From positions 1 through 28,569 of IMG/VR virus record IMGVR_UViG_3300021356_000126: 28,569 nucleotides of DNA. One strand, written 5' to 3'. Shown here piece after piece: positions 9,162 to 21,890 of the stretch; position 1 is the first letter of the stretch, and each line of letters opens with the position of its first letter. A program made the position numbers and the translations under genes. The notes beneath the pieces were generated by a model, which ran no database searches, had not been told where the DNA came from, and was given only the letters and a program-made list of their open reading frames with translations. The DNA comes from a virus.

Positions 9162-9174
9162 TATATAAGATATG
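9161..9174 (+). promoter_or_regulatory. 14-mer ATATATAAGATATG at a start codon, copy 1
   Basis: The sequence ATATATAAGATATG includes the ATG of the 9172 gene and is repeated exactly at 10279-10292, again including the start ATG. No Shine-Dalgarno sequence is present. It could be a TATA-type late promoter giving an almost leaderless transcript, or an AT-rich ribosome-loading sequence. The identity is observed; the role is inferred. Confidence 0.35.
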
Positions 9175-9540
9175 AAAACATTTGTAGAATATCTAAACGA
9201 GCAAAACATTTCCGAAGAGGATCTACGCATTTTAAACGAGGGTCTTCAAAGCGAGTGGACTGATGAATTAGAGGCTAAAGTAGACGAAGCTATAGATGCA
9301 TTTGCATCGGAATATATGTTAGAGGACGGAACCTATGATATTGATAGATTCAACGAGGAAATGACGAATGAAGGCATATTGGGCAGTATTATAGGAGGTC
9401 TCACTGGTTTTGCTTTAGGCAAGTCAGTAGGTAAACTAATTGCCAAAGTTTTAGGTGTACAAAAAGGTGTTTTATATGATCTATTAACTTCTAGGTTGGT
9501 CGGCGCCGCTTTAGGTGCTTCACTAGGAAAAAGATTCTAA
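9172..9540 (+). CDS. Pro-peptide-like glycine-zipper membrane protein with capsid-targeting-type N-terminus
   Basis: 122 residues in two contrasting halves. Residues 1-67 are strongly acidic (21 Asp/Glu against 4 Lys/Arg) and begin with MKTFVEYLNE, very like the T4 capsid-targeting peptide (MKTYQEFIxE), ending in an L-N-E site of the type cut by T4 gp21. A further L-N-E occurs at 21-23 and T-N-E at 65-67. Residues 68-122 are cationic (7 Lys/Arg, 1 Asp) and rich in small residues (GILGSIIGGLTGFALGKS), a glycine-zipper pattern able to insert in membranes. I infer a precursor packaged in the head and trimmed to release a membrane-active peptide, perhaps helping DNA entry. A tail or tape-associated role is the alternative. 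No homolog is recognised. Confidence 0.65.
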   Translation: MKTFVEYLNEQNISEEDLRILNEGLQSEWTDELEAKVDEAIDAFASEYMLEDGTYDIDRFNEEMTNEGILGSIIGGLTGFALGKSVGKLIAKVLGVQKGVLYDLLTSRLVGAALGASLGKRF

Positions 9541-12552: not shown

Positions 12553-12761
12553 AAGATATAACGAAAATGGTTGAAGAGGATTTAGATAACTTCTACGAAG
12601 ACGGAAAGAGGTTCAAGGGTCACAAGCTGCTGCTTGACTTTGATAGCTCGGAATATGACGTAGAGTTACCTGAAACAGAGTCTATAAAACCAAAGTATAA
12701 AAAGAAAAAGAAGGCTAGCGTATTCGTTAAGCCTAAATCGAATAGAAGATCGCTATTTTAA
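12540..12761 (+). CDS. Small protein with basic tail, between primase and UvsY-like gene
   Basis: 73 residues, unrecognised. The N-terminal half is acidic and helical (VRIEDITKMVEEDLDNFYED); the C-terminal third is strongly basic (KPKYKKKKK) and ends KSNRRSLF. It overlaps the primase gene by 13 bases and shares TAATG with the next gene, so it belongs to the replication/recombination operon. The basic stretch suggests nucleic-acid contact. The terminal SLF is loosely like hydrophobic clamp-binding tails, but that is weak. Function unknown. Confidence 0.6.
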   Translation: MVRIEDITKMVEEDLDNFYEDGKRFKGHKLLLDFDSSEYDVELPETESIKPKYKKKKKASVFVKPKSNRRSLF

Positions 12762-14742: not shown

Positions 14743-15372
14743 ATGAATAAATTACAAGACTTTAATAGCTTTGCTTCAGCTAAAAGGCAAGAGGCTCAAA
14801 TTAAGTTAGAGCAAGAGCAAGACGCAAAGAGAACATCTAGCGCCGAAACATTTAAATCTCTTTTAGCCGAGTATGGCGTAACAGATCTTAATGAATTAGA
14901 TGAAGAGCAAAAAACTACTTTCTTTTTAAAGCTAAGAGGCGGAGAAGTAAATGAGGATGTTAATTATATGATTGATAGATTAGAAGAGGCATATTCAGTT
15001 ACTGAAGCTGAAGTTAAGTCTGATGAAGATTTTCAAGAGTATGCAATGACTGTCTTAAAGAAAGCCTTTGGTGAAGATTTTGATGAGGCTAAGGCACAAG
15101 AAACAATTGATGGTATTCTTGGTAAGGCAGATGGAGATTATGGCGCAGCTGTAGGTATGTTAACATCTTCTTTAGGAGAATCAGTTGAGGTTAACGAAGC
15201 TGACATCAAGTCAGACGAAGATTTTAAAGAGTATGCGTTCTCAGTTCTTCAAAAGGCTTTTGGAGATGAGTTTGACGAGGCGAAGGCACAAGAAGTTGTA
15301 GATGGTATTCTATCTAAAGCTGGAGGAGATTACGGTCAAGCTGCTGGCATGTTACAGAGCTCACTTGGCTAA
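14743..15372 (+). CDS. Tandem-repeat acidic protein of the cargo cluster
   Basis: 209 residues, unrecognised. The N-terminus MNKLQDFNSFASAKRQEAQ has the F-x-x-F spacing of the cargo peptides but lacks the nearby L-x-E. After a charged helix come two copies of a ~58-residue unit at about 88-145 and 151-209, offset by 64 residues, each containing KSDEDF-x-EYA, a KAFG-(D/E) segment, FDEAKAQE, DGIL and GDYG-x-A-x-GML. Each repeat is preceded by a possible protease site (SVTE before AEV, EVNE before ADI), as in other proteins of the cluster. It is very acidic, so it could be a scaffold-like or internal head protein. It has a TATATAG box upstream and overlaps the next gene by TAATG. Confidence 0.6.
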   Translation: MNKLQDFNSFASAKRQEAQIKLEQEQDAKRTSSAETFKSLLAEYGVTDLNELDEEQKTTFFLKLRGGEVNEDVNYMIDRLEEAYSVTEAEVKSDEDFQEYAMTVLKKAFGEDFDEAKAQETIDGILGKADGDYGAAVGMLTSSLGESVEVNEADIKSDEDFKEYAFSVLQKAFGDEFDEAKAQEVVDGILSKAGGDYGQAAGMLQSSLG

Positions 15373-16673
15373 TGGACAAACTGCTGTCATACGATCAATT
15401 TCTATTTGAAAAGACAAAGCCGGTATTATCAGACTATTCACTTATAGTTGAAGGTGGGGCTTATGGCCACCTTACGCACCCGTTTGAAGATTTAGGTCTT
15501 ACCATGCAAGACCTTCAGGACATGATCGATGTTACTGTAGAGGGTGCTTTTGGACCTGAGAATTTCGTACAAGAAAAGACTGATGGACAGCAACTTTCTA
15601 TTTCATGGAAAAACGGAAGGCTCATAGCAGCTCGTAACAAGCAACATCTAAAGAATGCCGGTGAGAATGCTATGGGACCAGAAGACTTAGCCGCTAAGTT
15701 TGCGGGCAAAGGAGATATAGAAGTAGCATACAATGCAGCCATGAGGGATCTTCAAGCTTCTATAGGTGCTCTATCCGATGATAACAAGTTAAAGATATTC
15801 GATGAAGGGCGTAAGTTCGCTAGCATTGAGGTCATAACTCCAGTCACACAAAACACAGTACCTTATGGTCAAGATATGTTAGTCTTTCACAGCATAGTAG
15901 AGTATGATGAAGAAGGCAACGTAATAGGCGAAGACAAACAAGCTGGCTACGAAATAGCTAAGATGATAGAGGATGCCAACTCAGCTGCTCAAGAGATGTT
16001 CTACATTAGAGGACCTAAGAATATAGATATAGTTCCCTTTAAGGATGCTAAGAAGAAGGCTAAGTACTACGGAGATAAGTTAAAGGCTATCATGAAGGAT
16101 GCTGGAATCAATACCACATCTACAGTTTCTGACTTCGTGATGGGATCAGCTTTGAATAAGGTTGATGAGTTGGCTAAAGAGTTTAAGGTTGAGCTTTCTG
16201 AAGAGGCGAGAGAGGGAATAGCAAGAAGATTGGGAGGCATAGACAAGTCTTACAATGCTAGACAAATGAAGAAAGATCTCGGCGATGTAGCTCAACTATT
16301 TACAGATCTTGAGAAGAAGGATGGCAAAATTATCAAGAAGAAGATATATGCCCCTCTTGAGAACCTATTTTTAGAAGTTGGTACTGAGATGATGAAGAAT
16401 ATGTCTTCGTTCCTGTCAGCAAACCCAACAGAGGCCTCTGAGTACATGAGAAAGGAGATAGAATCAACTATATCAACTCTTAGAAAAACAGGAGGAGAAG
16501 AAGAAATAAAGAAGCTAGAACACGAGCTTAGCAGAATAGCCGCTATAGGAGGTATGGAGAATATAGTGCCAACAGAAGGCATTACTTTCGTATTTAAGGA
16601 TAAGGTGTACAAATACACTGGCATCTTTGCTCCGATACACCAGATAAGATCGATGTTAGCATATAGAAAGTAA
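15372..16673 (+). CDS. Ligase-type nucleotidyltransferase with capsid-targeting-type N-terminus
   Basis: 433 residues. It begins MDKLLSYDQFLFE, a cargo-type peptide with L-F-E site at 11-13. The covalent nucleotidyltransferase (DNA/RNA ligase) core is visible: motif I EKTDGQQ with Lys69 as presumed AMP acceptor, Asp71 and Gly72; the following ARNK (87-90) in the place of motif Ia; a motif III-like strand IEVITP with Glu153 then VPYGQDMLVFHSIV; a helical insert (about 200-390); motif IV TEGITFVF (Glu402, Gly403); and motif V-like KVYKYTG (Lys411, Lys414). Known members join or cap nucleic-acid ends using ATP or NAD. The substrate (RNA or DNA) is not visible; an RNA ligase-like role is my preference given the neighbouring nucleotidyltransferases. 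Confidence 0.68.
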   Translation: MDKLLSYDQFLFEKTKPVLSDYSLIVEGGAYGHLTHPFEDLGLTMQDLQDMIDVTVEGAFGPENFVQEKTDGQQLSISWKNGRLIAARNKQHLKNAGENAMGPEDLAAKFAGKGDIEVAYNAAMRDLQASIGALSDDNKLKIFDEGRKFASIEVITPVTQNTVPYGQDMLVFHSIVEYDEEGNVIGEDKQAGYEIAKMIEDANSAAQEMFYIRGPKNIDIVPFKDAKKKAKYYGDKLKAIMKDAGINTTSTVSDFVMGSALNKVDELAKEFKVELSEEAREGIARRLGGIDKSYNARQMKKDLGDVAQLFTDLEKKDGKIIKKKIYAPLENLFLEVGTEMMKNMSSFLSANPTEASEYMRKEIESTISTLRKTGGEEEIKKLEHELSRIAAIGGMENIVPTEGITFVFKDKVYKYTGIFAPIHQIRSMLAYRK

Positions 16674-16676
16674 GTT

Positions 16677-17276
16677 ATGAAGTACCTTAAACTATTCGAA
16701 ACATTTATAAACGAGGCGGTAGAGATATCTAATCCCATAGACGGTAAGGAGGTAGTGATTATGCCTGGCAGGTTTCAGCCCTTTCATTTGGGCCACTTAG
16801 CAGCCATAGAAAATGCTTCCAAACAGTTCGGAAAGCCGGTTATTCCTATTCAAGTTATATCTAAGAAAGACAAGTCTCCGTTTCCAGAAAAGCTACTTCA
16901 ACAAATGGGAGATGATGTTGCCAAGAACGAGTCATATATAGAAAAGTTTTTTATATACCCACAAGGTTACGGTTTAACTGTCATCCCGTGGTTCGTACGT
17001 TTCTTGAGAGACAACGGCTACGAGACAGTTGGTATGGCGGCGGGCAGTGACAGAGAAAAGGCCTATGCTGGACAAATGAAGTATATAACTAGCGATAAGA
17101 CTGATACTGTGGTTAAGGATGAGTTTGAGATGAAGATCGTAGATCAGCGAGTCGAAGGAGGACCCAGTGGCACTAAAACTAGAGCGGCTATAGCGGATGG
17201 AGATGAAGAGGCGTTTAAGTCCATGGTGCCAACTTACTTGCATAAATACTACGATCAATTAAAGAAGCACCTATGA
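16677..17276 (+). CDS. NMNAT-like nucleotidyltransferase (HxGH) with capsid-targeting-type N-terminus
   Basis: 199 residues. The N-terminal peptide MKYLKLFETFINEA has an I-N-E site at 11-13. The enzyme then begins with a beta strand and GRFQPFHLGH (31-40), the HxGH signature of the cytidylyltransferase-like superfamily in the form typical of NMN adenylyltransferases (NadM/NadR). The C-terminal SGTKTRAAIADGDEEAF (from 164) matches their S-x-T-x-x-R nucleotide-binding motif. The likely reaction is NMN + ATP to NAD+ + PPi, although FAD or other nucleotidyl transfers are possible. The reading frame starts 3 bases after the ligase-like gene and overlaps the next gene by 4 bases. With a presumed removable head-targeting peptide, it may act in the host immediately after infection. 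Confidence 0.78.
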   Translation: MKYLKLFETFINEAVEISNPIDGKEVVIMPGRFQPFHLGHLAAIENASKQFGKPVIPIQVISKKDKSPFPEKLLQQMGDDVAKNESYIEKFFIYPQGYGLTVIPWFVRFLRDNGYETVGMAAGSDREKAYAGQMKYITSDKTDTVVKDEFEMKIVDQRVEGGPSGTKTRAAIADGDEEAFKSMVPTYLHKYYDQLKKHL

Positions 17277-18157
17277 TGAAGCACATTAAACTATTCGAGC
17301 AATTTTTATTCGAAAGCGGTAACGCTATAGAAGACTCAAGACCTGTAGAGCAGTCTGAGATACCCAAGACGCTAGAGTGGGTTGAGAAGAACGTTTATCC
17401 AATTATAGGTCTCGACGGTCTTGGAGAAGATGCTGCTGTAATAGGTAGCGCAGGTAAAAAGAAGGAAGGTCAAACTAGTGGGGACATAGACATTGCGGTT
17501 TCTGCTGATAAGATTGCAGGTTTCCTAGACACTTCTGTATCTAAAGTTTTATTTGAGATGAACAACGTGCTAAAGTCAGCTGGTATGAACACGAACATGG
17601 CAGTAGGTTTTCAGCAGGTTAGTATAGCTGCTCCTATCATGGGTGACTTTAAGAAGGGCGTTTGTCAAGTAGACCTAATGCTTTCTAGAGATATTAAGTG
17701 GAGCACATTCATGTATCACTCCCCTGACTTTACAAAGGACGAGTCCAAGTATAAGGGGGCATATAGAAACATTCTACTTATGGTAGCTATAGGATCCTCT
17801 TACGTGGAGATACTTGATAAAACTGAGGAAGATGAAGTTAAGGTATATCAAGCATATGTTATTAGGTTGAATCAAGGTGTTGTTCAAGTTAGAAAGTCGT
17901 ATGAGGGCAAGAGAGGTCTCTTAAAGAATGCTAAGCTTCTTAAGGAGTTTGATAAGGAGATAACTAATACTCCGCAAGAAGTTGTAGATCTACTCTTTGA
18001 TGGGGTTAACGTATCTCAAGTTATGACTTACGAATCATTAAGAGACTTGATAAACTCCAAGGCCTTTAAATTCCAAGATTTAAGGTATGAAATTTACGAC
18101 AAGTTTGCTAAGAGACTGGAACAGAGTGGTCTTCCACTTCCAGACGATATGGCATAA
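17273..18157 (+). CDS. Pol-beta-type nucleotidyltransferase with capsid-targeting-type N-terminus
   Basis: 294 residues. It starts MMKHIKLFEQFLFES (L-F-E site at 12-14). A Pol-beta superfamily active site follows: VIGSAGKKKEGQTSGDIDIAV, with Gly58-Ser59 and the metal-binding Asp71-x-Asp73, and the third carboxylate in CQVDLML (Asp134). The loop between GS and DxD is longer than usual, and the C-terminal half is helical (YESLRDLINSKAFKFQDLRYE). Relatives include CCA-adding enzymes, poly(A) polymerases and antitoxin/toxin nucleotidyltransferases, so the substrate could be tRNA, another RNA, a protein or a small molecule. Its place between two ligase-like proteins favours RNA-end work, but this is inference. 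ATGATG at the start leaves a one-codon ambiguity. Confidence 0.7.
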   Translation: MMKHIKLFEQFLFESGNAIEDSRPVEQSEIPKTLEWVEKNVYPIIGLDGLGEDAAVIGSAGKKKEGQTSGDIDIAVSADKIAGFLDTSVSKVLFEMNNVLKSAGMNTNMAVGFQQVSIAAPIMGDFKKGVCQVDLMLSRDIKWSTFMYHSPDFTKDESKYKGAYRNILLMVAIGSSYVEILDKTEEDEVKVYQAYVIRLNQGVVQVRKSYEGKRGLLKNAKLLKEFDKEITNTPQEVVDLLFDGVNVSQVMTYESLRDLINSKAFKFQDLRYEIYDKFAKRLEQSGLPLPDDMA

Positions 18158-18158
18158 A

Positions 18159-18165
18159 TATATAG
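18159..18165 (+). promoter_or_regulatory. CATAAATATATAG box before the 18170 gene
   Basis: CATAAATATATAG (18153-18165) contains both a near match to the T4 late box TATAAATA (one mismatch) and the TATATAG found before other cargo genes. It lies only 11 bases from the ATG, so a transcript from it would have almost no leader. Role inferred. Confidence 0.3.
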
Positions 18166-18169
18166 TATC

Positions 18170-19450
18170 ATGGCACTTCAAAATTTAAGAACACATTTCG
18201 AGTCGTCTAACAGAAACGAATTTAACTCTCTTTTAAAGCAGAGGTGTTTGGTTACTGAAAAGATCCAAGCTTCCTCGTTTCATGCTAGGAAAACTGATAA
18301 GGGCTACGATTATTACAAGAGCGGGTCTAGAACCCCTATGAACAAAGTGGACAGAACTATCGTTAGGTATTATGAGAATGCAATAGATTACTTTAAATCT
18401 ATTCCTAAAGAAGTTAGGGAAGATATGCCTACAGATTGGAAGTTTGGTTTCGATTATATGACTGAGACCAGAACAGTAGACATTCAATATGATGCTTTGC
18501 CAAAGAATAACTTGATTCTAACGCATATTCAAGTTTTAAATCCAACTGATCCAACTCAAATAAAGAAAGTGATAAGAGATCCCAAAGTTCTAGAAAAATG
18601 GGCTAATATCCTACAAGTTCAAGCTCCGCCTATATTGTTTGACGGAGTTTTAGATTCTAATCAAAAGGACATGCTAATTGATCTTTTAGAGATGAGCGAC
18701 GAAGCATTTAAAAACGTGTTCGAAGATACTTCATTTACTAGAAAGGTCTATAGCATTTTTAATCGCATGGCAAATAAGACTGCTCTTAACGAAAGCCTAG
18801 ACGGAGACATAGATTCACTTATAGTCTCGTTTATTGATAAAAAGAATATTAAGAATTTCAAGCTTGGTAGATTTGATAAGATTGAAGAAAAAGAAAGAGA
18901 AGCTTCAGACATGTATCAAATTACAATTTTAGATCTTGTTGAGTACATGACTCAGTTCAATATGGATAAAGTAAAGCTGGTTGAAGAAGACACTGACTTA
19001 AGATATATTGAGTTGGTCTCAGAGATATTTAACCAATATATGACTAAGAACGCAGTTAAGTACATTGGAGCTGAGTTTGACTCGGCTGGTTTCTCTAGTA
19101 GAAAAGGATTCGAGCTCAATAAGGATTTCATCAAGAATGAGGGTACGGTAAAGCTTATTCAAAATGAGGATCTATCTGAATTGTTTAAGATTATGCTAGG
19201 CTCTTTTAGGAAGAAGAGAACTAAGGAGACCAAGATTATAAACTCAGATCTTATGAGTCAGATGAATGAGATAGTTGAAAAGATAGAGGCTGTAGTAATG
19301 TCTAAGAAGAACGAGTCCGAGATTATGGCCTTCAATACTTATCTGAAGCATCAAAAGATACAAACTCAGTCTAGTCCTGTTATAAACGAAGAGGATGCAT
19401 TGGATGAAGGAGAAACCATAATGACTTTCAACCAGTTTGTGGGACAATAA
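18170..19450 (+). CDS. Divergent ligase-like (Rnl2-type) protein with cargo-type peptide at the C-terminus
   Basis: 426 residues. TEKIQASSFHARK (29-41) is close to motif I of T4 RNA ligase 2-type enzymes (EKIHG-x-NF), with Lys31 as candidate nucleotidyl lysine, although the usual Gly is Ala. FGFDYM and VDIQYDALPKNNLILTHI (about 93-120) fit the motif III region; IDSLIVSF (215-222) and NFKLGRF (229-235) could be degenerate motifs IV and V. It therefore looks like a divergent or possibly inactive ligase-fold protein. There is no N-terminal cargo peptide; instead the last residues, IMTFNQFVGQ, copy the F-x-x-F pattern, preceded by an I-N-E site (VINEED). A TATATAG box lies just upstream and another just downstream. 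Confidence 0.55.
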   Translation: MALQNLRTHFESSNRNEFNSLLKQRCLVTEKIQASSFHARKTDKGYDYYKSGSRTPMNKVDRTIVRYYENAIDYFKSIPKEVREDMPTDWKFGFDYMTETRTVDIQYDALPKNNLILTHIQVLNPTDPTQIKKVIRDPKVLEKWANILQVQAPPILFDGVLDSNQKDMLIDLLEMSDEAFKNVFEDTSFTRKVYSIFNRMANKTALNESLDGDIDSLIVSFIDKKNIKNFKLGRFDKIEEKEREASDMYQITILDLVEYMTQFNMDKVKLVEEDTDLRYIELVSEIFNQYMTKNAVKYIGAEFDSAGFSSRKGFELNKDFIKNEGTVKLIQNEDLSELFKIMLGSFRKKRTKETKIINSDLMSQMNEIVEKIEAVVMSKKNESEIMAFNTYLKHQKIQTQSSPVINEEDALDEGETIMTFNQFVGQ

Positions 19451-19481: not shown

Positions 19482-21890
19482 ATGAACTTCAACGATTTTT
19501 TAAACGAGAAGAGAAACGTTACTTTAAAAAGAAGGTATACTGATAATCATCCAGCTATAGAAGCTGGTCTAACTGCAAGAGTTAGGAACAAGATGATTGA
19601 AGCAGTTGCTGATGGTAAGTTGTCTCAAGAAGAATTTAAAACAATTCTATCTGAGTTTAGCACTGATTCTGCCAGATGGATTAGAAGAAACGCAAAGTAC
19701 TTTAATGTATCCGAAGACGGTATTAGCTTGTCTAAGTTTGGTAAGAGATTGTTGAAGACAGTTATTATTACTGAGAACGAAGCCGTCATTCTTGAATCTA
19801 CCAGATCACACGTTGGTATTATAGATAAGAGAGGTAAAATCATCTCTACCTACGTTCACAACGATGGATATCCAGAAGGAGTTGGAGCTATGGTTGTAAA
19901 TCACTTTGCAGATACTCGCAAGGTCAAGGAGCTTCTAAAGCTTGGTAAGTGGGGAATATCTTACTTAGAACCGGGCATTGAAGGCGGTGAAGGCCACTCA
20001 TTCAATACTCCAGTCGATGGAGAGACTGTATTCTACGGAAGAGATAGAGGTCAAAAGAAATTTGTATCTACTTTTACCGCCGATCAAAGAGATTTACAAG
20101 ATTACTTAGCTGACGTTTCTAACGATGCTGGAGCTGAGTATGTTTACCTATGGGACGAAGCCGCTAAGAAGTGGATGTACGCCGAAACTTCAACCAGCGC
20201 TGGAAGAAGACAAGGTCTTAAGGTTTTAGAGAACGTTGAAACAATAGGAGATGAGTTATTTGAAGGTAGAAATGCTTTTATAACTGCAGCAAGAACTGCT
20301 AAGTCTGAAGGTCTAAAGGAGTTTGAATTTAAGGGTAAGACTTTCCCAGTTACAGTAAAGGACGTAAGCGAAGAAGAGGTCGAAGAGGTCGAAGAGGTCG
20401 TTGAAACAAAGGATTTGGTTTTTGAATCGTTCTCAGATTTTGTATCTAAGTTAAACGAAGAACAAGTCAACGAATGGGGATCTTCTGACAGCTACGCCAT
20501 GAGTGTAGAAATTCATCACTATATTAAGAAGCCTAAAAAGATGCCTTCTCCATTTGATAAAAAACTAAGAGATGCAGCCGAGTATGCAGTTGAGCGTCAT
20601 TGGTCAGAATGGCCAGAGTACAGAACTAGGCATGAAAGCCTAGTGGACGACGCTGTTAGAACATATCTAAGACACTTTCATAGAGATGAGTACATGAATA
20701 TGGTTAAGATGTTTGCACCAGTTGACGAGTCTACTGTAAATGAAACCAGATTCTATGCTATATTTCAAAGTGCTAAACATGAGATAGAAGCTAAAGATTT
20801 ATACGATGCTAAAAAGAAGGCAGTTGCACAACTTAAGATTAAGAAGAAAGACCTAGGTCTACTTGCTATTGTCAATGCAGATCAGCATGATGATTTCTCA
20901 AAGGGCAAGAATATGGATTTTGCCTTTGAAGGCGAAGAGCTTAACGAAGCATTTAAGTCTGCTAAGCTACAGCAATTGTTTAATACCAAACAAGGTAGTC
21001 AATGGACTAAAAGACCTATCAAGGATTTGCCAAAGGCATTCTATGGCATGACTAAAGTTGCATTAGACAAAGTAGAAGATGGTGATTTAATCGATATGGC
21101 TGATCCAAAAGAAGCCCATGCTCTTGATAAGGCAGGCAAAGGCAGATATGTTATCTTCTATATTGTAGATCAACCAAAAGATAATCAATATGCACCGACC
21201 GAAGGTTATGGTACTATTCCTCCTGGAATTATAGCGATCGTTAGAAATAATAACTTCCAAGGTTTAACATGGGATAGAACATACCGTGGCAATAAAGGAG
21301 GAAGAACTTTAGGCTCCACTGATGACGGAGGAGTAGGCATAAGCAAGAAGTATAAAGGCTGGGACGGTACAGGCTTATACAACCCTAAGAGAATCGCTGA
21401 TGTAGCCGATAGAGCTGTCATGCTTGACATCAATGCCCTACAAGATAAGTACTCTACTCAAGGCAAGAGAGCCGATAGAGAGGCTGCTAAGAAAGGAGCA
21501 ACTGCATTTAAGAGTGATAGAGACTTTAGACAAGAGAATATGAAAAGGTATAAGCAAATCCTAGCTGATAAAGCAGCTAATCTTCCGCTTGATAAGATGG
21601 TCAATGACGCTATCGATATGTTATCTGCTCAAATCAAGCACGGTCTTGAGTCTGGAGAAACTAACAACGGTGAGCCAATCTTAGGACACGATCCTAAGGG
21701 TAGACCAGTTAGAATGAGAGATGCATCTAATCATATGTCCAATATTCTAGACGACTATGCAGACTATGTTAGATACTCTAACGAAGCTAAAGATTCTATT
21801 GGTGACTACTATGCTGCAAGAGTTAAAGAAGAGGCTAAGTCTATCAAAGATAGAATCAACAAGATCGCCACAATGAACTACGTTTGGTAA
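19482..21890 (+). CDS. Modular cargo polyprotein with capsid-targeting-type N-terminus
   Basis: 802 residues. It begins MNFNDFLNEK (L-N-E site at 7-9). Modules in order: a charged helical part with SKFGKRLLK (84-92); a domain (about 108-240) with SHVGIIDKRGKIISTYVHND and GYPEGVG, resembling a phage family of unknown function; an acidic linker EEEVEEVEEVVE (about 298-308); a second cargo-like peptide VFESFSDFVSKLNEEQVNEW (313-332); a short helical part ending at a VNE site (419-421); a small domain FYAIFQSAKHEIEAKDL (from 424); an LNE site (487-489); and a C-terminal ~310-residue part of unknown function (YVIFYIVDQP, TIPPGIIAIV, ADRAVMLDI). The sites fall between modules, so processing by a prohead protease is inferred. 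T4 Alt, an injected ADP-ribosyltransferase, is a position analogue only; no catalytic triad is seen. Confidence 0.65.
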   Translation: MNFNDFLNEKRNVTLKRRYTDNHPAIEAGLTARVRNKMIEAVADGKLSQEEFKTILSEFSTDSARWIRRNAKYFNVSEDGISLSKFGKRLLKTVIITENEAVILESTRSHVGIIDKRGKIISTYVHNDGYPEGVGAMVVNHFADTRKVKELLKLGKWGISYLEPGIEGGEGHSFNTPVDGETVFYGRDRGQKKFVSTFTADQRDLQDYLADVSNDAGAEYVYLWDEAAKKWMYAETSTSAGRRQGLKVLENVETIGDELFEGRNAFITAARTAKSEGLKEFEFKGKTFPVTVKDVSEEEVEEVEEVVETKDLVFESFSDFVSKLNEEQVNEWGSSDSYAMSVEIHHYIKKPKKMPSPFDKKLRDAAEYAVERHWSEWPEYRTRHESLVDDAVRTYLRHFHRDEYMNMVKMFAPVDESTVNETRFYAIFQSAKHEIEAKDLYDAKKKAVAQLKIKKKDLGLLAIVNADQHDDFSKGKNMDFAFEGEELNEAFKSAKLQQLFNTKQGSQWTKRPIKDLPKAFYGMTKVALDKVEDGDLIDMADPKEAHALDKAGKGRYVIFYIVDQPKDNQYAPTEGYGTIPPGIIAIVRNNNFQGLTWDRTYRGNKGGRTLGSTDDGGVGISKKYKGWDGTGLYNPKRIADVADRAVMLDINALQDKYSTQGKRADREAAKKGATAFKSDRDFRQENMKRYKQILADKAANLPLDKMVNDAIDMLSAQIKHGLESGETNNGEPILGHDPKGRPVRMRDASNHMSNILDDYADYVRYSNEAKDSIGDYYAARVKEEAKSIKDRINKIATMNYVW
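20373..20399 (+). repeat. Three perfect copies of GAAGAGGTC in an acidic linker
   Basis: A 9-base unit is repeated three times in frame, encoding EEV-EEV-EEV in the linker just before the second cargo-like peptide of the polyprotein. Such a tract can change length by slippage without a frameshift. Confidence 0.9.

Follow-up and report, generated by a model that had tools for sequence, protein, structure and literature searches.

The window, i.e., the whole stretch of DNA that was analysed, is a virus record of 28.6 kb (IMGVR_UViG_3300021356_000126, 28,569 nucleotides) with T4-like genes, including tail-fibre-type, RuvC-like, gp32, primase, UvsY-like (12761) and UvsW genes. Directly downstream of UvsW, and all on the + strand, lie the genes P1 (14743), P2 (15372), P3 (16677), P4 (17273), P5 (18170), P6 (19482) and a gene for a DUF3008 protein (21892). 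The open reading frames (ORFs) of P2 to P5 nearly overlap, and they are found where the original prediction, made from the letters of the DNA, had put four nucleotidyltransferase-fold proteins in a row; the motifs it had named are present and its fold or motif assignments were borne out for all four (for P4 by motif only). That these are real genes is shown by ~80 loci with 31–97% identity in which P2, P3, and P5 are found again, their order either unchanged or permuted, and the degree to which the motifs are conserved exceeds by far what chance would give. We propose, at an even chance, that with these proteins T4-like phages package in the head, and inject, a set for the processing of nucleic-acid ends, a function that we infer from folds, motifs and gene context. 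The features that carry this proposal are given below, where the strict motif is an N-terminal T4-type targeting peptide of FxxF(L/I)xE shape and lengths are in amino acids (aa).

15372..16673, + strand: P2, ligase-type covalent nucleotidyltransferase, 433 aa (motifs, AlphaFold model)
15372..15410, + strand: predicted capsid-targeting peptide of P2, MDKLLSYDQFLFE (strict motif)
15450..15455, + strand: E27-G28 of P2, invariant possible second cut site, I-V-E/G-G in the window (alignment; L/I-X-E rule, PMC9026906)
15576..15587, + strand: motif I of P2, K69-T-D-G72 (alignment)
16575..16580, + strand: motif IV of P2, E402-G403 (alignment)
16677..17276, + strand: P3, HIGH adenylyltransferase of the nicotinamide mononucleotide adenylyltransferase (NMNAT) type, 199 aa (Pfam CTP_transf_like 3e-7; archaeal NMNAT 1f9a 1.8e-13)
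16677..16715, + strand: predicted capsid-targeting peptide of P3, MKYLKLFETFINE (strict motif)
16767..16796, + strand: motif GRFQPFHLGH of P3 (alignment)
17273..18157, + strand: P4, Pol-beta-type nucleotidyltransferase, 294 aa (motif)
17273..17314, + strand: predicted capsid-targeting peptide of P4, MMKHIKLFEQFLFE, with the cut site before S/G-G-N-A (strict motif, alignment)
17444..17491, + strand: motif G58-S59...S-G-D71-I-D73 of P4 (alignment)
18170..19450, + strand: P5, divergent RNA-ligase-fold protein, 426 aa, with a T4 Rnl2-like core and a helical C-terminal region (model, alignment)
18257..18280, + strand: motif I equivalent of P5, EKIQASSF, residues 30–37 (alignment)
19418..19447, + strand: C-terminal TFxxF tail of P5, IMTFNQFVGQ, downstream of SPVINE (kept in 50/55 unique P5 sequences)

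An alignment of 28 relatives of P2, with identities down to ~30%, contains motifs I (KxDG), III, IIIa, IV (EG), and V (K) in the correct order in every member, and the residues E68-K69-T70-D71-G72-Q73, R88, E153, F172-H173, P400, E402-G403, and K414-x-T-G are invariant (28/28). No family in Pfam, PHROG or NCBIfam matches P2. As sequence profiles of P2, P4, and P5 gave nothing significant against the PDB, P2 and P5 were compared by fold. In the AlphaFold (AF2) model of P2 (predicted local distance difference test, pLDDT, 84.8) the motifs sit on the expected strands, a helical insert of ~200 residues (189–392) separates motifs IIIa and IV, the chain stops soon after motif V and no OB domain is present. 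Ligases lead the Foldseek matches of this model, the top PDB entry being T4 Rnl1 (E 3.7e-3, prob 0.84), and comparison with RNA ligases gave Z 8.0–8.6 over 185–221 residues (best Z 8.6 over 188). These structural scores are moderate, yet the match and the motifs agree, and within the set P2 alone is, on this prediction, a ligase-type enzyme that is clearly intact. It differs from T4 Rnl1 and Rnl2 in its insert and in having no C-terminal domain, and neither P2 nor P5 matches Pfam RNA_ligase, a family that was found elsewhere in 5/21 records but is absent from this locus. That P2 comes from cells was also considered and rejected, the only matches being five contigs of metagenome-assembled genomes that are probably phage DNA.

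A parallel to the layout of P2 is seen in DUF6267 (PF19782), which is conserved in T4-like cyanophages and was found in about 465 phage records. In both families HxxHP, KxDG, EG(I/F/Y)V, and K(L/V)(T/V) follow one another and a 30-residue tail comes last (7+7 proteins compared), and phrog_455 spans both. In contrast, 0/28 P2 members match the PF19782 profile at E up to 10, so that it is the common layout that suggests a link.

The model of P5 (pLDDT 83.7) has T4 Rnl2 as its best fold (Foldseek to 2hvr, E 4.6e-8, prob 1.00), and gave Z of about 10.6 over 184–190 residues with Rnl2-type structures (1s68, Z 10.7 over 184). The structure comparison that had been suggested from the sequence thus led to RNA ligases for P2 and to T4 Rnl2 for P5. 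All near-family members of P5 keep K31 and K231. The canonical Rnl2 set (KxxG in motif I, Glu in motif IV, Lys in motif V) is nevertheless incomplete: motif I (EKIQASS) keeps the Lys and has Ala for Gly, and motif IV, I-D-(G/S)-L, has Asp for Glu. In homologues from huge phages the motif-I lysine is replaced by D or N (EDIQGSK, ENLDGST). Because of the changed motif-I Gly and motif IV Glu, and because distant homologues are without the nucleotidyl lysine, P5 is probably no ligase; an active enzyme is unlikely and a non-catalytic or altered ligase fold is the better description. Of the ligase-type activities that had been foreseen for the cluster, that of P2, with intact motifs throughout its alignment, remains predicted, and that of P5 is improbable. 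In huge phages of 635–735 kb the P5 homologues without motif-I lysine measure 440–453 aa and no recognisable NMNAT was seen nearby.

P3 scores above the gathering score of Pfam CTP_transf_like (E 3e-7), its profile matches archaeal NMNAT 1f9a (E 1.8e-13), and it has both the (H/T)xGH and the S-x-T-x-x-R motif. Without exception, 23/23 P3 sequences keep G31-R32, P35, G39-H40, and S164-x-T166-x-x-R169. With the archaeal NMNAT equivalog TIGR01527 P3 scores 22.2 bits, far below the cut-off of 181.2, so that nicotinamide mononucleotide (NMN) is the likely candidate for its substrate. P4 can be assigned to the Pol-beta type by its motif: G58-S59, S69-G70-D71-x-D73, and a third Asp, D134, are invariant in 10/10 sequences (GS...SGDIDIAV in the window), and Pfam scores are weak (Polbeta E 0.09, DNA_pol_B_palm E 0.07). 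Like RlaP (PF10127), P4 is a Pol-beta-type nucleotidyltransferase encoded next to a ligase, and RNA ligase together with RlaP is a known partnership in jumbo phages (PMC7824862). That P4 is itself an RlaP could be ruled out, since no PF10127 match was obtained at E up to 1; RlaP occurs in 1/21 records, away from this locus.

The association of these genes was followed in 82 loci in which P2 is followed by 4 kb or more of downstream sequence (overlapping pieces of some contigs are included in this count). NMNAT is present in 80/82, NMNAT together with P5 in 76/82, and P4 in 19/82. Window-like phages have the order P2-P3-P4-P5. In a larger phage group P2 is followed by one protein of 611–618 aa in which P5 is fused to NMNAT, an arrangement counted in 46 close-family fusions, and the huge phage LR756500 has P2 followed by a P5-NMNAT protein of 653 aa. 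Microcystis phage Mel-JY01 has instead a fusion of NMNAT with a P2-type ligase. Comparable sets are found in more distant phages: the DUF6267 gene (KWDG...EGYV) of S-RSM4 overlaps an NMNAT gene, in syn9 a tagged NMNAT adjoins DUF6267, and Sinorhizobium phage Phosso has a P4 homologue beside a KLDG ligase-like gene (ligase by motif reading). In Stenotrophomonas phage Moby (3390–6507) a Pol-beta-like gene is followed in turn by an endonuclease-like gene, a KMDG ligase-like gene and an NMNAT gene, all but the last assigned by reading of motifs; the first three are annotated as hypothetical, and the second, a possible PD-(D/E)XK-like gene read by eye, belongs with the KMDG ligase-like gene to families that phrog_12709 spans. 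Alignment with hhalign of P2 or P5 against DUF6267, T4 Rnl2, and the ligase-like proteins of Moby and Phosso was not significant.

The presence of a Pol-beta-type signature next to an intact ligase-type enzyme also brings DNA repair to mind. African swine fever virus carries a ligase and a Pol X that are thought to repair nicks and gaps, and P2, P4, and their partners could likewise seal nicks and gaps in the phage DNA as it enters the cell, with the NMNAT regenerating NAD+ for the host LigA. The location of the cluster beside UvsW, UvsY-like, gp32, and primase genes would fit such a role, as would the possible endonuclease-fold gene between the Pol-beta and ligase genes of Moby. On the other hand RNA ligases rank ahead of DNA ligases as the nearest structures for both P2 and P5, the OB domain is missing and T4-like phages usually encode a DNA ligase of their own. 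We therefore regard genome-entry repair as an improbable main function.

The second part of the proposal, packaging in the head, is a likely prediction for this phage. It follows from peptide statistics, from the prohead protease of relatives and from published virion NMNATs. In T4 the first ten residues of IPIII contain positions 4 and 7 that govern entry and positions 8 and 10 that govern cutting, and gp21, whose cleavage follows L/I-X-E, shortens Alt at its C-terminal end as well (PMC9026906). The strict motif marks only 5/28 window genes, i.e., an ORF at 9172, P2, P3, P4, and P6, so that the head-targeting-type peptides originally noticed on P2, P3, and P4 are confirmed. Across loci a targeting peptide is present in 44/49 distinct P2 N-termini and in 0/161 distinct control sequences (UvsW 0/29, gp32 0/28, primase 0/36, the UvsY-like protein at 12761 0/38, RuvC-like 0/30). 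P5 has no N-terminal tag; its TFxxF tail is likely to be a C-terminal targeting propeptide, and an (L/M)TFxxF end is found in 50/55 distinct P5 and P5-NMNAT sequences. Possible cut sites in P2 (E27/GG) and P4 (E14/(S/G)G) are invariant in relatives. The junction of the close P5-NMNAT fusions has a T4-protease-like cut site, P(I/L/V)xE(A/G)L, in 46/46 cases, and it is reasonably likely that the fusion is cut apart inside the head. An S77 prohead protease was found in 18/19 relatives, the record of the window itself being only 28.6 kb long. In most relatives the protease match sits in unusually long frames of 614–831 aa, which may represent fusions of the protease with a core or scaffold protein, and in two records the frame has ~220 aa.

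The value of the motif can be judged from the cyanophage S-CREM2, in which it matches 6/197 genes; 5/6 of these are in the published virion list obtained by mass spectrometry (MS), with Fisher p=0.004 (PMC10665884). The five are a SAM hydrolase, gp13, an APH-like kinase, gp136, and the NMNAT. The Cas9-like gp12 of S-CREM2, also detected in virions, has a similar peptide, RFASFMAEAA, ~20 residues in. NMNAT-like proteins were detected in virions of S-SCSM1, S-CBWM1, and S-CREM2 (PMC9602691, PMC10665884); these NMNAT or cytidylyltransferase proteins of T4-like cyanophages belong to the same NMNAT-type superfamily as P3, and that of S-CREM2 has a targeting peptide of the same type. Together with the peptides and the protease, this agrees with the original prediction that the set is delivered as head cargo. 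The cyanophage reports differ from the present analysis in that they treat the NMNAT alone, and the linked ligase-type gene, the fusions and the cut sites are not mentioned. The cluster resembles T4 internal proteins and Alt in its N-terminal FxxF(L/I)xE peptides, in the S77 protease of relatives and in the expected cleavage after Glu, and Alt is processed at its C-terminus too (PMC9026906). The T4 cargo, in contrast, consists of basic proteins or an ADP-ribosyltransferase and not of ligase-, NMNAT-, and Pol-beta-type enzymes, and P5-NMNAT would here travel as a single polypeptide whose junction contains a cut site.

It could be argued that P2 to P5 are ordinary late or replication enzymes that act in the infected cell, and that they bear FxxF tags and LxE sites because they serve as filler of the prohead core or scaffold, with any catalysis in the virion of minor importance. 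The cluster does lie among replication genes, P5 seems catalytically eroded and many T4-like core proteins bear FxxF-type peptides. Filler would, however, not need the active-site residues of P2, P3, and P4, which are invariant across strongly diverged relatives, and the tagged proteins of S-CREM2 include enzymes that were found in virions. This explanation appears to us to have little probability.

The NMNAT itself suggests yet another purpose, in which the injected enzyme makes NAD+ from NMN and thereby blunts NADase defences or feeds NAD-using enzymes of phage or host, while the ligase folds anchor it or use its product. P3 is an intact enzyme of this type, and for the virion NMNATs the authors of the cyanophage studies suggest an influence on NAD levels (PMC9602691, PMC10665884). 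As in the phage NAD+ salvage pathways (NadV-NadM/NadR) there is an NMNAT-type adenylyltransferase; P3 differs in having no Nudix or kinase domain. A survey reported that every NadM-bearing phage also carries NadV (PMC9503650), whereas NadV/Nampt was found in only 4/19 related records (some of them fragments), so that NadV-coupled salvage is unsupported as a general rule and the supply of NMN would depend on the host. It is a ligase fold, and not a salvage enzyme, that is conserved as the partner of the NMNAT, and P3 misses the TIGR01527 cut-off. Pure NAD+ rescue becomes less likely with NadV mostly missing and a ligase fold as the constant partner: the case for it as main purpose is weak, the NAD-restoring purpose raised originally is weakened by the genetic tie of NMNAT to ligase folds, and an NAD+-guarding function in the wider sense is unlikely.

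Under the end-processing proposal the N-terminal FxxF(L/I)xE peptides or, in P5 and P5-NMNAT, the TFxxF tail at the C-terminus would draw the proteins into the prohead core, where the S77 prohead protease would free them at (L/I/V)xE sites. The cargo would be ejected with the DNA, and would thus act before phage transcription, on targets such as host-cut tRNAs or DNA. P2 would self-adenylylate and then seal nucleic-acid ends, more probably of RNA than of DNA in view of the RNA ligases that are closest in fold and of the missing OB domain. P4 would add nucleotides at ends or gaps, and P5, as a worn-down ligase fold, would be an RNA-binding or scaffold partner. P3, physically tied to a ligase-fold partner, would recycle NMN to NAD+ or supply an adenylylated product on site. 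It is tempting to go further and picture a widespread and hitherto unrecognised virion-borne ligase-NMNAT machine, with a P5-NMNAT precursor cut in the head and with P2 and NMNAT chemically coupled, rather than representing two separate repair activities, through exchange of NMN, NAD+, and ATP at NAD+-linked ligation or through RNA ends that receive NAD-type caps or adenylates; this we consider doubtful.

Several observations weigh against the end-processing proposal. Neither a polynucleotide kinase nor a phosphatase was recognised among the cluster genes, and such an enzyme is usually needed for repair of RNase-cut tRNA. P4 is present in a minority of loci, P5 is probably not an active ligase, and P2 could have DNA as its substrate, or could serve in RNA capping or protein modification. 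P2 and DUF6267 gave an hhalign probability of 2%, which is not significant, and the DUF6267 ligase-like gene of S-CREM2, gp87, is untagged and its product was not detected in virions (gp160 had been considered as this gene and was rejected). Both proteome papers state that carry-over in caesium chloride (CsCl) could account for the MS detection of non-structural proteins (PMC9602691, PMC10665884). For this phage packaging is predicted by analogy, the virion evidence being that for the cyanophage NMNAT, and we infer cleavage, ejection, catalytic activities, substrate and a role against defences.

Three further genes of the window belong to this picture:

9172..9540, + strand: small ORF of 122 aa with the N-terminal capsid-targeting peptide MKTFVEYLNE (strict motif; outside the cluster)
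14743..15372, + strand: P1, 209 aa, with two internal repeats (kept just upstream of P2)
19482..21890, + strand: P6, 802 aa, with the N-terminal targeting peptide MNFNDFLNE (strict motif; extends the tagged block beyond P5)

By its peptide the product of the ORF at 9172 is likely to be further head cargo. The N-terminus of P1, MNKLQDFNSF, has FxxF and no LxE; its repeats are two near-identical copies of SDEDFxEYAxxVLxKAFGxxFDEAKAQExxDGIL, and portions of P1 reappear in variable neighbours of P2 among relatives. P6, which matches phrog_1987 in part and differs strongly in length and domains among relatives, is a tagged protein that reads as modular cargo.

The combination as packaged cargo had originally been thought not to be described. 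This is so in part: head-borne NMNAT in cyanophages is already published, as is the pairing of RNA ligase with RlaP (PMC7824862), whereas the fusions of ligase folds with NMNAT, the assignment of P2 as a ligase with its DUF6267 parallel and the two-ended targeting appear to be new. For the link between ligase and NMNAT no account was found in the openly searchable literature, subscription papers lying outside the search.

Cyanophage proteomics has repeatedly met virion NMNAT-like enzymes without a stated reason. The ligase-fold partner and the fusions lead to the hypothesis that the NMNAT belongs to a nucleic-acid end-processing set and not, or not only, to NAD metabolism. The targeting motif predicted virion cargo well in one published proteome (5/6), and may predict injected cargo genome-wide; being predictive in S-CREM2, it could serve to draw up lists of injected effectors for many T4-like genomes. 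If the hypothesis is true, T4-like phages arrive with ready-made repair enzymes, which would be relevant to defences whose cutting of tRNA or DNA takes only minutes.

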